NCBI GenBank assembly: GCA_026931725.1
Contig: JAIXLE010000134.1
Location: 1 to 64,000, forward strand
Origin: Bacteroidales bacterium
GTDB taxonomy: Bacteria; Planctomycetota; Planctomycetia; Gemmatales; Gemmataceae
DNA length: 64,000 nucleotides
Direction of reading: 5' to 3'
The notes beneath the pieces are model-generated. The model did not search any database. It saw nothing but the letters and a program-made list of their open reading frames with translations, and had not been told where the DNA came from. Position numbers and translations under genes: made by a program. Shown one piece after another: positions 10,631 to 14,924 of this stretch (positions are counted from its first letter, which is position 1; each line of letters opens with the position of its first letter).

Positions 10631-10786
10631 GGAACCCGGTTGGCCAGCAACCGCTTTGCACCCCTTGAGTGATGGATGATGTCGGTTTTCTGAAATCCGA
10701 GTCGGGGAACTAGACGGGGGAATCTGGGGTGATAATATCTTGTCTCTAGGGCAGGTATCATTTTGTTTTCGCATCGGGAGATATTT

Positions 10787-11815
<1,029 letters not shown>

Positions 11816-11817
11816 GC

Positions 11818-13059
11818 ATGGCCACTTCAGCTCTGTCATGGACAGCGACTCAGCCACGCGTCCCGTTTGGCTGGCGGTGGATGTCGATCGCGGTGGCGGC
11901 CTTGGCGATGGTGGCCACGCTACCCGGTCGCACGCATGGGCTGGGTCTGTTCACCGAGCCGATTCTGCGGGAGTTCGGGTTATCGCGTGTTGACTACGGG
12001 TTGATGAACCTGTGGGGGACTCTGCTGGGGGCGGCGTTCTGCCTGCCGTGCGGCTGGCTGCTGGATCGGTTCGGCACTCGTACCGTGCTGGTGGGAACGA
12101 TGGTGTTGCTCGCGGGTTCCGTGTTCGGACTGGCGGCATGGACGGGCGGGACGACGGGATTGTTCCTGTTCATCCTGTTGACTCGGGGATTCGGGCAGAG
12201 TGCTTTGTCGGTGGGGAGCCTGGCGTTGGTGGGGCGCGCCGCCGGGGTGCGGAGCGGTTGGGGTATGGGAGTCTACGCCTGCCTGACGACACTCGGGTTC
12301 ATGGCCGCGTTCACAGTGCTGCGTTCCGTGGTGCTGGCCAGCCCCGACGATTGGCGCACGCCGTGGGCCGGAATTGGTGGTGGGGTACTCGTGGCCGCGG
12401 TCGTGTCGGGGTTGCTGATTCGAGATCACAAACGGGTACACGCATCGCACGAACCCAGAGAGGAACCGAGTCACACGTTCGGGCAGGCGTTGGCATCACC
12501 GGCGTTCTGGGTGTTCGCGGTCGGCACTGCGTTCTACGGGATGGTGGCAGCGGGTACCTCGTTGTTCAATGAGTCGATTCTGGCGGAACGTGGGTTTCCT
12601 AAAACCATTTTTTTGAATGCCACGGTCGTTGGCATCCCGGTCGGGTTGGTGGCGAATCTGCTCGGCGGGTGGTTGGCTGGCCGGGTCGCCTTGGGTCGGT
12701 TGTTCGCGGTGGCTCTCGCGTTGCTGGCCGTCACGCTGTTGCTGTTTCCGCGCGTGGTCGTGGAATGGCAGGTCTATGCGTATGTGGTGGCGCTCGCGGC
12801 GGCGGGTGGGGTCATCACGGTGTGCTTCTTCATCGTCTGGCGGCGAGCATTTGGGCCAGCGGCTCTGGGGCGCATTCAGGGGGCCGCGCAACTGCTGACG
12901 GTCCTCTTCTCGGCGGCGGGGCCATTGCTGTTCGCGGAAGCGCAATCGCGGCTGGGTCAGTATGCTCTGCTGTTTCCCTGGCTGGCCGGAACCGCGTTCT
13001 TCCTGGCTCTCTACTCGTGGTTCACCCGTATCACCCCGTACCCCCGAGTTACCCGATGA
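11818..13059 (+). CDS. Major facilitator superfamily transporter
   Basis: A 413-residue membrane protein with about 12 hydrophobic segments in two blocks separated by a charged loop (RDHKRVHASHEPREEPSH, about residues 204-221). GWLLDRFGTR between segments 2 and 3 is the MFS motif A region. It resembles the oxalate/monocarboxylate-like branch, but the substrate cannot be read. The next gene (PhyH) starts within its stop codon (ATGA), so the two are translationally coupled. Context with the PhyH and ArsI-like genes raises the possibility that it moves an organic arsenic or phosphorus compound; this is inference. Confidence 0.88.
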   Translation: MATSALSWTATQPRVPFGWRWMSIAVAALAMVATLPGRTHGLGLFTEPILREFGLSRVDYGLMNLWGTLLGAAFCLPCGWLLDRFGTRTVLVGTMVLLAGSVFGLAAWTGGTTGLFLFILLTRGFGQSALSVGSLALVGRAAGVRSGWGMGVYACLTTLGFMAAFTVLRSVVLASPDDWRTPWAGIGGGVLVAAVVSGLLIRDHKRVHASHEPREEPSHTFGQALASPAFWVFAVGTAFYGMVAAGTSLFNESILAERGFPKTIFLNATVVGIPVGLVANLLGGWLAGRVALGRLFAVALALLAVTLLLFPRVVVEWQVYAYVVALAAAGGVITVCFFIVWRRAFGPAALGRIQGAAQLLTVLFSAAGPLLFAEAQSRLGQYALLFPWLAGTAFFLALYSWFTRITPYPRVTR

Positions 13060-13832
13060 CCCAGTTGACCAGACCTTCACCTTGGCGAACTCAGTGGGAA
13101 CGCGAGGGATTCGTGATCCTGCGGGGATTGTACGATACCCCGGAAATCGCCGCCGCCGCACACGATGCGGATCGGGTCCGAGAAGAATATGCCCATCTGG
13201 TGAACGTCCAGAATATCCGCTGCCGTTGGCAGGACAATGTCTTCACGGGGGAATGTCAGTTTGACGCTTTCGATCCGATCATCGACTTGTCGCCCGTCTG
13301 TCGCGGTCTGGCACACGATCCCCGACTGTTCGAGTTGTTGGCGACCTTGTACGGGGAGCCTGCGTGTCTGTTCAAGGACAAGCTCATCTTTAAGATGCCG
13401 GGAGCGAAAGGGTACGGCCTCCATCAAGATTGGATCGCCTGGGAACGATTTCCGCGTAGCTTCCTCAGCGTGCTGGTCCCACTCGACCCGGCCGACGAAG
13501 ATAACGGCTGTACGCTGGTGTATCCCGGTTATCATCAGGTCGGGCCGCTGACCCCAACCGATGGCACCTACCGGGAACTGGCCGCGGAAACCGTGGATGA
13601 ATCGCAGGCGGTGCCGTTAATCCTGGAGCCGGGCGACGTGGCGGTGTTCAGCGGCTTCACCCCGCATCGCTCCAATCCGAACCTCTCGGATCGCCCCCGC
13701 CGTCAGCTGTACTTCAGCTACACGCGGCAGTCCGATGGTGGGGAACTCCGCGGGCAGCACTATCAGGATTTCCACCAGTTCCTGAAAGCGAAATATGCCG
13801 AGTACGGCAAGCACGACACCTACTATGCCTGA
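13056..13832 (+). CDS. Phytanoyl-CoA dioxygenase (PhyH) family protein
   Basis: A 258-residue Fe(II)/2-oxoglutarate-dependent oxygenase of the PhyH family. The iron-binding HxD lies at His123-Asp125 (LHQDW), the distal His at 204 (TPHRSN) and the 2-oxoglutarate-binding Arg in RRQLYFSY. It would hydroxylate a small organic substrate in the cytoplasm. The ATG overlaps the MFS stop, so it is coupled to the transporter, and the ArsI-like fusion gene starts 36 bases downstream. Many PhyH proteins act on secondary metabolites or phosphonates; substrate unknown here. Confidence 0.88.
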   Translation: MTQLTRPSPWRTQWEREGFVILRGLYDTPEIAAAAHDADRVREEYAHLVNVQNIRCRWQDNVFTGECQFDAFDPIIDLSPVCRGLAHDPRLFELLATLYGEPACLFKDKLIFKMPGAKGYGLHQDWIAWERFPRSFLSVLVPLDPADEDNGCTLVYPGYHQVGPLTPTDGTYRELAAETVDESQAVPLILEPGDVAVFSGFTPHRSNPNLSDRPRRQLYFSYTRQSDGGELRGQHYQDFHQFLKAKYAEYGKHDTYYA

Positions 13833-13868: not shown

Positions 13869-14924
13869 ATGCCCGCTGAACCGCAAACCCGCTTTCATCT
13901 GTCGTTAAACGTCGCGGATCTGCCGCGATCCGTGGCGTTCTTCCGCATCCTGTTCGGGCAGGAACCCGCCAAGCTCCGCCCGGATTACGCGAAGTTCGAG
14001 CCAGGGGAACCCGCACTGGTGCTCTCGCTGGAACCGCAGGCACCGGGCAGTAGCGGCGTGTTGAACCATGTGGGCATCCGACTCCCGGACCCCCAGTCTC
14101 TGGTCACGGTGCAACGGCGGTTGGAAGCCGCGGGCATCCGCTGCCAGCGGGAAGAAGGTGTCGAGTGCTGCTACGCCAAGCAGACGAAATTCTGGCTGCG
14201 TGACCCGGATGGCACATTGTGGGAGATGTACACCTTCGAAGGCGACCTCGACCATCGCGGTGTGGGTCAAGCTCAGGATGTCGTACTGGTGAACACACCA
14301 ACCCTATCCGCGTCCGTCGTCTGGGAACACCGGATGGACCAACTGCTTCCCGAATGCCTCCCTCTCGCGGACGGCAGCGCAGACGAAGTGCGACTACGGG
14401 GGACGTTCAACCTTCCCCTGTCGACCGAGCAGCAGCAGACCATCATGAACGAAGTCGAACGGGCGCTGAAACCCGGCGGGCGGCTGTTCGTGCATGTGCT
14501 GACCTCGGATCAGACGGTAGAAGCTCCCGCGCTCCCCGGTCCGGCCGCCGTGGTCCGCTTTGTGCCGCGAGAACAGGAACCGTTGCGGTTACTCGTGGAA
14601 GCGGGGTTCTCCGCCGTGCGGCTGTTGAAGTTCGACGCGAAGCCGTGCTTCGTCCGCGCGGGCGTGGAAATGCGGGAAACGCAGATGGAAGCGTGGAAGC
14701 CAATTGCCCCCCCCATCGAGGCGACCCAGACCGTGCTGTATCGTGGGCCGTTCGATCAGGTGGAATTAGACGGTCAAACGTATCGACGCGGTATGCGGGT
14801 GACTGTGCCGGAGTCGGTTGCGGAGCGGTTCCAGCAGCCGGATTGGGCGGCGTTCTTCACCGTGTTTCCGGCAACGGTTCGTCGCCCAGAGGGAGCCCCA
14901 GCCTGTGGAGCGGGCTGCGGCTGA
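13869..14924 (+). CDS. ArsI/CadI-like glyoxalase-fold protein fused to a partial methyltransferase
   Basis: A 351-residue two-part protein. Residues 1-130 are a VOC (glyoxalase-fold) domain close to ArsI, the Fe-dependent C-As lyase: His10, His67 and Glu119 fit the metal ligands, and the vicinal Cys100-Cys101 in ECCYAK fit its arsenic-binding pair. Residues 140-290 resemble the second half of a SAM methyltransferase (LPLADGSADEVRLRG, ALKPGGRLFVHVL), without a visible GxGxG SAM-binding half. Residues 285-345 (VLYRGPF, YRRGMRV) resemble the C-terminal tail of ArsM-type arsenite methyltransferases, and the protein ends CGAGCG. It probably deals with organic arsenic or another soft metal; the fused half may be structural or bind metal. 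The stop is followed by a terminator-like palindrome. Confidence 0.75.
   Translation: MPAEPQTRFHLSLNVADLPRSVAFFRILFGQEPAKLRPDYAKFEPGEPALVLSLEPQAPGSSGVLNHVGIRLPDPQSLVTVQRRLEAAGIRCQREEGVECCYAKQTKFWLRDPDGTLWEMYTFEGDLDHRGVGQAQDVVLVNTPTLSASVVWEHRMDQLLPECLPLADGSADEVRLRGTFNLPLSTEQQQTIMNEVERALKPGGRLFVHVLTSDQTVEAPALPGPAAVVRFVPREQEPLRLLVEAGFSAVRLLKFDAKPCFVRAGVEMRETQMEAWKPIAPPIEATQTVLYRGPFDQVELDGQTYRRGMRVTVPESVAERFQQPDWAAFFTVFPATVRRPEGAPACGAGCG

Follow-up and report, generated by a model that had tools for sequence, protein, structure and literature searches.

An ArsI domain fused to the later half of an ArsM in a conserved planctomycete gene cassette, a candidate C-As lyase

One gene in the window (the whole 64 kb stretch of Gemmataceae DNA analysed here) joins a domain of the C-As lyase ArsI to the later half of the methyltransferase ArsM, the latter deprived of what ArsM uses for SAM and arsenic binding, and related fusions are found across Planctomycetota, mostly beside the same transporter and dioxygenase genes. 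Considering ancestry, residues and neighbours together, we give about even chances to the reading that this protein is an Fe(II)/O2-dependent ArsI-type C-As lyase whose ArsM-derived C-terminal part serves as a non-catalytic module. The two parent enzymes work in opposite directions, ArsM forming C-As bonds and ArsI cleaving them, and a gutted ArsM attached to an ArsI is thus a recombination of the opposite enzymes of one cycle.

The fusion gene and its ArsI domain

The gene and the predicted functional positions of its first domain are the following.

13869..14924, + strand: CDS of the ArsI::psi-ArsM fusion, a single unbroken frame with an ATG start, 351 amino acids
13890..14258, + strand: ArsI/CadI domain of VOC fold, residues 8-130 (NF041414 and TcArsI structures)
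13896..13898, + strand: H10, predicted Fe(II) ligand, aligned with Gln8 of TcArsI (fusion alignment)
14067..14069, + strand: H67, predicted Fe(II) ligand (fusion alignment)
14166..14171, + strand: C100-C101, vicinal Cys pair predicted to bind trivalent arsenic (TcArsI alignment)
14223..14225, + strand: E119, predicted Fe(II) ligand (fusion alignment)

The NCBI model for this family (NF041414, ArsI_CadI_VOC) scores 125.7 bits on residues 8-136, against an equivalog cut-off of 116, and it matches all 22 members of a 22-sequence alignment of fusions at E 1e-5. TcArsI chains (PDB 5c4p and others) match the N-terminal domain with an E value of 1.2e-24; these chains are 123-126 amino acids long, and the match ends at their last residue, approximately where the ArsM-derived part of the fusion, here called psi-ArsM, begins. 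The VOC fold, the positions of the Fe ligands and the vicinal cysteine pair are shared with ArsI. H10, H67 and E119 correspond to positions 8, 65 and 117 of TcArsI, which we take to be its Fe(II)-binding triad, the first of them being Gln in TcArsI and His in the fusion, and C100-C101 align with the TcArsI pair that presumably binds the arsenical. The first-pass annotation had stated that the metal ligands and vicinal cysteines of ArsI are kept, and it was right: by alignment, the residues of the ArsI site are complete in the fusion from the window.

These cysteines and the Fe ligands are invariant across the 22-sequence alignment. Residues were also counted over 56 distinct fusion sequences, a few of which are shortened by contig or locus ends. 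Position 10 is His in 49 of them, Gln in three and Ser in one, and is absent from three; H67 is present in 53; the E119 column holds Glu in 54 and Asp in two; C100 is found in 55, and C101 in 46, with Gly in nine and a gap in one. All nine sequences with Gly at this position are first-copy tandem paralogues. Taking into account that C101 is Gly in nine of the 56 and that a few paralogues lack Fe ligands, some copies of the fusion may do something else. The NCBI model would label the fusion as a plain ArsI, which calls for caution in annotation.

The second half derives from ArsM

The remainder of the protein contains two ArsM-like segments and two positions of special interest.

14316..14705, + strand: psi-ArsM, later half of the ArsM Rossmann domain, residues 150-279 (hhalign, Foldseek and structural model)
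14400..14402, + strand: G178, at the position of an ArsM arsenic-binding Cys, taken as Cys174 of CmArsM (fusion alignment)
14646..14648, + strand: C260, a Cys where ArsM has Trp (fusion alignment)
14724..14870, + strand: ArsM-type C-terminal tail (YxGPF...RG), residues 286-334, missing from short members

It had been proposed at first reading that the second part resembles only the later half of ArsM plus its tail, and profile comparison agrees. When 16 C-terminal halves of fusions were compared by hhalign with 13 of the 30 planctomycete ArsMs extracted, the match reached a probability of 99.7 and an E value of 1.6e-26, and it placed residues ~150-339 of the fusion on positions 153-343 of 382 in the ArsM profile. 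Searches with individual models gave similar spans: Pfam Methyltransf_11 matches residues 162-209 only through positions 52-95 of 95 (21.0 bits, just below the cut-off of 21.2), and the ArsM model NF040538 matches residues 168-324 through positions 169-330 of 356 (E 1.2e-10). The bit score of the fusion against NF040538, 41.1, is to be read against a cut-off of 500 which planctomycete ArsMs do not reach either (best 363.9 bits; none above it in 148 genomes). From these spans, homology to ArsM starts right after the SAM-binding half and extends into the ArsM tail. The Tyr of this tail is kept in 44 of the 56 fusions, being Phe in one and a gap in 11.

Structure prediction leads to the same family. 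The AlphaFold2 model of the full-length fusion has a mean pLDDT of 84.4 and a pTM of 0.49, which means that the domains are mostly confident and their mutual placement uncertain; modelled alone, the C-terminal half has a mean pLDDT of 89.5 and a pTM of 0.70. The comparison of this half with ArsM, suggested in the first-pass annotation, was made with Foldseek: the best 13 PDB matches are all ArsM or AS3MT, with E values from 1.1e-11 to 1.5e-9, the next match lying at 4.5e-6. The rmsd over the whole ArsM/AS3MT match is 14-15, which we read as a different arrangement of Rossmann half and tail in the model from that in ArsM. With the full-length model, the best Foldseek matches are ArsM and TcArsI. 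In VIA-align the C-terminal model ties between CmoB (Z 12.3) and CrArsM (Z 12.2), followed by CmArsM at 9.8-9.9, so VIA-align alone cannot single out ArsM, which the Foldseek and profile scores do. An origin of the second half in an unrelated family is ruled out by the hhalign and Foldseek matches to ArsM.

Residues lost and gained in the ArsM-derived half

The SAM-binding loop, motif I (D/E-x-G-x-G-x-G), is present in 29 of 30 ArsMs and in none of the 56 fusions, in keeping with its earlier reported absence. The column of G178 holds Cys in all 30 ArsMs, and Gly in 54 of the 56 fusions (Asn in one, a gap in one). None of the 56 has Cys at the second arsenic-binding position of the later half of ArsM, nor is there any Cys within five columns of either position in any of them. 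The arsenic ligands of CmArsM are Cys72, Cys174 and Cys224, the C174A and C224A variants being inactive (PMC3877260). By motif, the two cysteines lost in the fusions would be equivalent to Cys174 and Cys224, and the position of Cys72 would fall within the half deleted from them. Judged by its residues, the psi-ArsM half is devoid of what ArsM uses for SAM and arsenic binding, and the fusion cannot be a methyltransferase by itself. The earlier suggestion that this half could be a metal-binding remnant is not borne out as far as ArsM chemistry is concerned, given that both arsenic-binding cysteines of the half are gone in 56 of 56 fusions. A regulatory part, the other option raised there, would be conceivable.

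The column of C260 holds Cys in 44 fusions, Trp in 11 and a gap in one, versus Trp in 30 of 30 ArsMs, and the residues invariant in the 22 aligned fusions are G178, P183, G204, G224, C260, F261, R269 and E270. Moreover, 27 of the 56 fusions have Cys among their last 12 residues, the fusion from the window having two.

Distribution and evolution of the fusion

In all, 72 fusion frames were collected, 56 of them distinct. A pattern scan of genome contigs gave 24 loci, namely two Geodermatophilus loci with ArsI only and 22 planctomycete fusions, distributed over Zavarzinella, Gemmata, Fimbriiglobus, Limnoglobus, Schlesneria, Fuerstiella, Pirellula, Planctomyces and other bins. Among 95 Gemmataceae genomes, the C-terminal half was matched in 34 at E 1e-3, and the fusion is carried by 25, those with a C-terminal match at E < 1e-25; one of the weaker matches, inspected closely (G023), is an ordinary ArsM. 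Across the phylum, both domains occur in one frame at E 1e-20 in at least five of 392 genomes, considering the best five candidates per genome. Two or more fusion copies, mostly in tandem, are present in 10 Gemmataceae genomes.

The first-pass annotation had raised the possibility of a sequencing error, to be checked in other Gemmataceae; the recurrence of the fusion in 25 of 95 genomes disposes of it, and its conservation in frame in 56 distinct sequences excludes chance, sequencing error and misjoined genes alike. Read-through of a stop codon, considered for two short members (L039 and L054) in which tblastn alignments crossed a TAG, was also ruled out; the sequence past the stop opens a gene in a different frame, which two close relatives share. 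Among plasmid records, none of the 114 matched covers 80% of the fusion query, and a match of the second half on a Cupriavidus plasmid proved to be a complete ArsM with its SAM loop and cysteines.

Concerning selection, identity to the fusion from the window in loci L005-L014 is 48-57% for psi-ArsM versus 62-72% for the VOC domain. The dN/dS ratios of psi-ArsM are 0.14, 0.13, 0.16, 0.07, 0.25, 0.39 and 0.13 in seven of eight pairs, several of these values being rough from synonymous saturation and the eighth pair having a saturated dS; in each of the seven pairs with finite values, the ratio is equal to or above that of the VOC domain. By these codon comparisons, both halves are under purifying selection. 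The second half, which had been described as a possible remnant, is thus no decaying relic, being conserved across the phylum with dN/dS of 0.07-0.39.

In a tree of VOC domains, read unrooted, 27 standalone ArsIs are separated from 58 cassette VOC domains by a split with support of 0.93, six of the 58 being without psi-ArsM in the frame used. Midpoint rooting nests the standalone ArsIs among the fusions, while the unrooted tree presents them as one clan. The tandem group is poorly supported (0.17 and 0.43), and therefore no claim is made on the order of duplication.

In the tandem loci (L095-L100 and L015-L028), the first copy carries Cys-Gly in nine sequences and the second copy Cys-Cys, and some of the clusters hold additional unfused VOC copies. 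Going by this pairing of residues, the two kinds of copy could form heteromers. One locus (L079:1483-1956, minus strand) contains a psi-ArsM piece without an ArsI domain, perhaps the relic of a lost fusion.

A cassette with a transporter and a dioxygenase

Three genes precede the fusion on the same strand of the window, in the order DUF1559, MFS, PhyH and, lastly, the fusion.

10763..11815, + strand: DUF1559 (SBP_bac_10) protein with an N-terminal methylation motif (PF07596, 154 bits against 23.3; N_methyl, 27.9 against 21.2)
11812..13059, + strand: MFS transporter, 415 amino acids from TTG 11812 (or starting at ATG 11818) (PF07690, 80.3 bits against 33.4)
13056..13832, + strand: PhyH-family Fe(II)/2-oxoglutarate dioxygenase (PF05721, 106.4 bits against 22, scored on 13083-13832)

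The ATG of the PhyH gene overlaps the stop codon of the MFS gene by four bases (ATGA), the MFS gene either overlaps the DUF1559 gene by four bases (from TTG 11812) or follows it after two (from ATG 11818), and 36 bases separate PhyH from the fusion. The PhyH translation contains HQD and a later His; HxD...H is the motif of PhyH 2-oxoglutarate dioxygenases. Its best NCBIfam match is methylphosphonate hydroxylase, at 92.7 bits against a cut-off of 500, and its best PDB matches are EvdO2, EvdO1 and ectoine hydroxylase.

Neighbours were counted in 24 canonical loci (the window, L034-L055 and L099), flanks that could not be seen being contig ends. PhyH lies beside the fusion in all 20 loci with a visible flank, MFS in 22 of 23 (missing in L034) and DUF1559, as a neighbour of the cassette, in 17 of 19 (the exceptions being L034 and L049; present in the window, L035, L037-L042, L044-L047, L051, L053-L055 and L099). 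DUF1559 is also present in L147 and L148 and absent from L146, and all four cassette genes are found in L158 and L159. DUF1559 alone is weak evidence, since the genome of the window has 67 matches to this family. The order MFS-PhyH-fusion occurs mostly in relatives of Gemmata and PhyH-MFS-fusion in most others, and in L046 the fusion comes first; these differing orders imply that the linkage of the cassette outlived rearrangement. The tandem loci L095-L098 and L100 combine MFS and fusions without PhyH. In a phylum-wide search for the MFS protein, in which the best four candidates per genome were scored, at least eight genomes carried it, three of them as lone relatives, and no replacement of the fusion was recognised there in the ORF list or by tblastn. 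The conserved neighbours (DUF1559, MFS and PhyH) say more about function than the fusion alone.

A gene for a CobW-type GTPase lies near the cassette in four loci (L050:2209-3318, L055:5535-6668, L148:1520-2636 and L146:4009-5124), in three of which it adjoins an ArsR with a GCC motif, of the type described below.

Links to arsenic genes

Ten of 27 canonical loci (L037, L039, L041, L044, L049, L050, L054, L055, L147 and L148) have, next to the cassette, a small ArsR/SmtB-type repressor with a C-terminal GCC motif, for instance L055:5181-5495; several other loci are cut by contig ends. It is also near the cassette in L158 and L159, loci chosen because a repressor of this type had already been placed on the same contig. 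Three cysteines are invariant in 10 of 10 of these proteins, one close to the first helix and two in the GCC motif, a pattern absent from the two ordinary ars-operon ArsRs compared, and both GCC-type members scanned pass the NCBI ArsR/SmtB metalloregulator model (88.5 and 80.3 bits against a cut-off of 55). In five of 16 fusion-bearing genomes (G007, G020, G040, G043 and G093), the nearest GCC-type ArsR is on the contig of the fusion; none was found in G191, and in the remaining ones it is distant or on another contig, the single-contig genomes G010, G051 and G071 included.

Genes of arsenic resistance proper adjoin the cassette less often. In genome G332 (locus L147), the genes after the fusion, all on its strand, encode a GCC-type ArsR, a DUF488 protein, a second ArsR, ACR3, an ArsC-like protein (best match the arsC_pI258 family, 147.4 bits against a cut-off of 174.3) and a standalone ArsI (140.2 bits against 116), and G444 has ACR3 and ArsI with the same spacing. 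L147 is the only one of 27 canonical loci in which ACR3 or ArsC relatives were found beside the cassette; ACR3 was found in three of 15 genomes, near the fusion in two. Genes for ArsI are described as lying within ars operons (PMC6205960), a usual setting without being a strict definition, which is present in G332 and absent around the fusion of the window.

Within the 64 kb window, relatives of ArsR, ACR3 and ArsC were searched for and none was detected at E 1e-5, and the genome to which it belongs has no ACR3 at E 1e-30 and no ArsM at E 1e-15. The general arsenite-methyltransferase model gives 17 matches in this genome, none above its cut-off, and is uninformative here, as all 14 control genomes match it too. 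The genome does contain a separate standalone ArsI, and at a distance of 2.6 kb from it are arsR, an arsC-like gene (129.1 bits against a cut-off of 174.3) and the gene of a MIP channel. These searches tie the cassette of the window to arsenic through its ancestry and the neighbours of its relatives, not through its own neighbours. The closest GCC-type ArsR of the genome (L155:6574-6918, contig C81) is unlinked to the cassette, as happens in several relatives; an association of this repressor with a C1-metabolism gene preceding it was dropped, the gene having no Pfam match at E 1e-5.

Proposed function and alternative readings

According to the reading to which we give even chances, a trivalent organoarsenical would bind C100-C101 beside the Fe of the VOC domain, where its C-As bond would be cut. 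The psi-ArsM half would carry out no methylation and would offer a surface for dimerisation, substrate presentation or partner docking. PhyH could hydroxylate a more highly substituted arsenical, or a side chain of it, either ahead of the cleavage by the lyase or following it, the MFS protein would transport the substrate or the product, and the Cys-bearing ArsR, where present, would turn the cassette on. Given that an ordinary ArsI coexists with the fusion both in the genome of the window and in the gene run of G332, the substrate of the fused lyase probably differs from that of ordinary ArsI. We know of no activity for any member of the fusion family, and the cassette may represent a route for dealing with organic arsenic that has yet to be described.

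A more specific proposal, which we consider unlikely as it stands, is that the cassette serves planctomycetes in degrading, by oxidation, organoarsenicals that are beyond the reach of ordinary ArsI, PhyH hydroxylating a carbon adjacent to arsenic and the fused lyase cleaving the C-As bond. Candidate substrates would be di- and trimethylated arsenicals, arsenosugars, arsenobetaine or an arsenic-bearing natural product; the dead ArsM half might be shaped for such larger arsenicals, and in many lineages the cassette would have its own ArsR. Should organoarsenicals be its substrates, the cassette would bring a 2-oxoglutarate dioxygenase and an MFS carrier into the arsenic cycle, and Planctomycetota would offer a testable degradation route for more highly substituted arsenicals.

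It might also be that the VOC domain has been repurposed and that the cassette acts on a non-arsenical compound, such as a natural product or a phosphonate-like molecule, the ArsI and ArsM ancestry being only history. The best matches of PhyH (methylphosphonate hydroxylase, below cut-off, EvdO2, EvdO1 and ectoine hydroxylase), the presence of ACR3 or ArsC relatives in a single locus out of 27 and the loss of the arsenic-binding cysteines of ArsM are consistent with this. Nevertheless, we regard it as rather unlikely: none of the 22 aligned fusions deviates at C100-C101 or at the Fe ligands, a three-Cys ArsR is near the cassette in a dozen loci, and in G332 and G444 the cassette has ACR3 and ArsI as neighbours, all of which argue for arsenic.

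The two other alternatives concern the psi-ArsM half. This half might bind trivalent arsenic through new cysteines, C260 and those of the C-terminus, and pass it to the lyase site, as could be suggested by C260, invariant in the 22 aligned fusions and replacing the ArsM Trp in 44 of 56, and by the terminal cysteines of 27 of 56 fusions, two of them in the window. It seems quite improbable, considering that the position of C260 retains Trp in 11 of the 56, that only three have two close terminal cysteines, that the cysteines of ArsM are absent from all 56 and that the short members lack the tail altogether. An evolutionary leftover without any role, with the ArsI domain alone being of consequence, would explain why psi-ArsM has a lower identity to the fusion from the window (48-57% against 62-72% for the VOC domain in L005-L014), why its dN/dS never falls below the VOC value in the seven finite pairs and why the tail is missing from several lineages. 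It is, however, very improbable for a segment with dN/dS of 0.07-0.39 and eight columns invariant in 22 of 22 fusions, kept from the relatives of Gemmata to bins of Pirellula, Fuerstiella and Planctomyces.

Comparison with known systems

By membership of its first domain, the fusion is an ArsI, to which a pseudo-ArsM module and a new cassette have been added; it differs from ArsI in its PhyH-MFS setting and in the place of its VOC domains, which lie in a clan of the tree apart from standalone ArsIs. With ArsM and AS3MT (CmArsM, 4fr0 and 6cx6; CrArsM, 5evj; human AS3MT, 8xt7) it shares the later Rossmann half and the C-terminal tail, but the SAM-binding half is missing and the arsenic-ligand cysteines are deleted or replaced.

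A parallel outside arsenic metabolism is the N-terminal domain of Anamorsin (4m7r), which we take to have a methyltransferase-like fold without methyl transfer. VIA-align gives it a Z of 10.5 with psi-ArsM (rmsd 3.2, 115 aligned), and the Anamorsin domain appears as a weak Pfam match in three of 16 members. There is no close sequence kinship between the two, and Anamorsin is a precedent for a mode of action, not a family assignment.

Fusions of arsenic genes have been described before, among them ArsR-ArsC and AqpS-ArsC (PMC6205960) and ArsRM (PMC10190100). In these, as described, both parts are taken to work, whereas in ArsI::psi-ArsM one partner is halved and without its catalytic features. 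Planctomycete ArsMs have been placed in one group with their fungal counterparts in a study that also reports an arsM-SelD fusion (PMC5552862). In the open-access literature, most subscription journals being outside the search, no description of the ArsI::psi-ArsM fusion or of its cassette was found. PADLOC returned a single weak match for the fusion, to mad2 (E 4.2e-5, residues 181-263), which is taken as generic.
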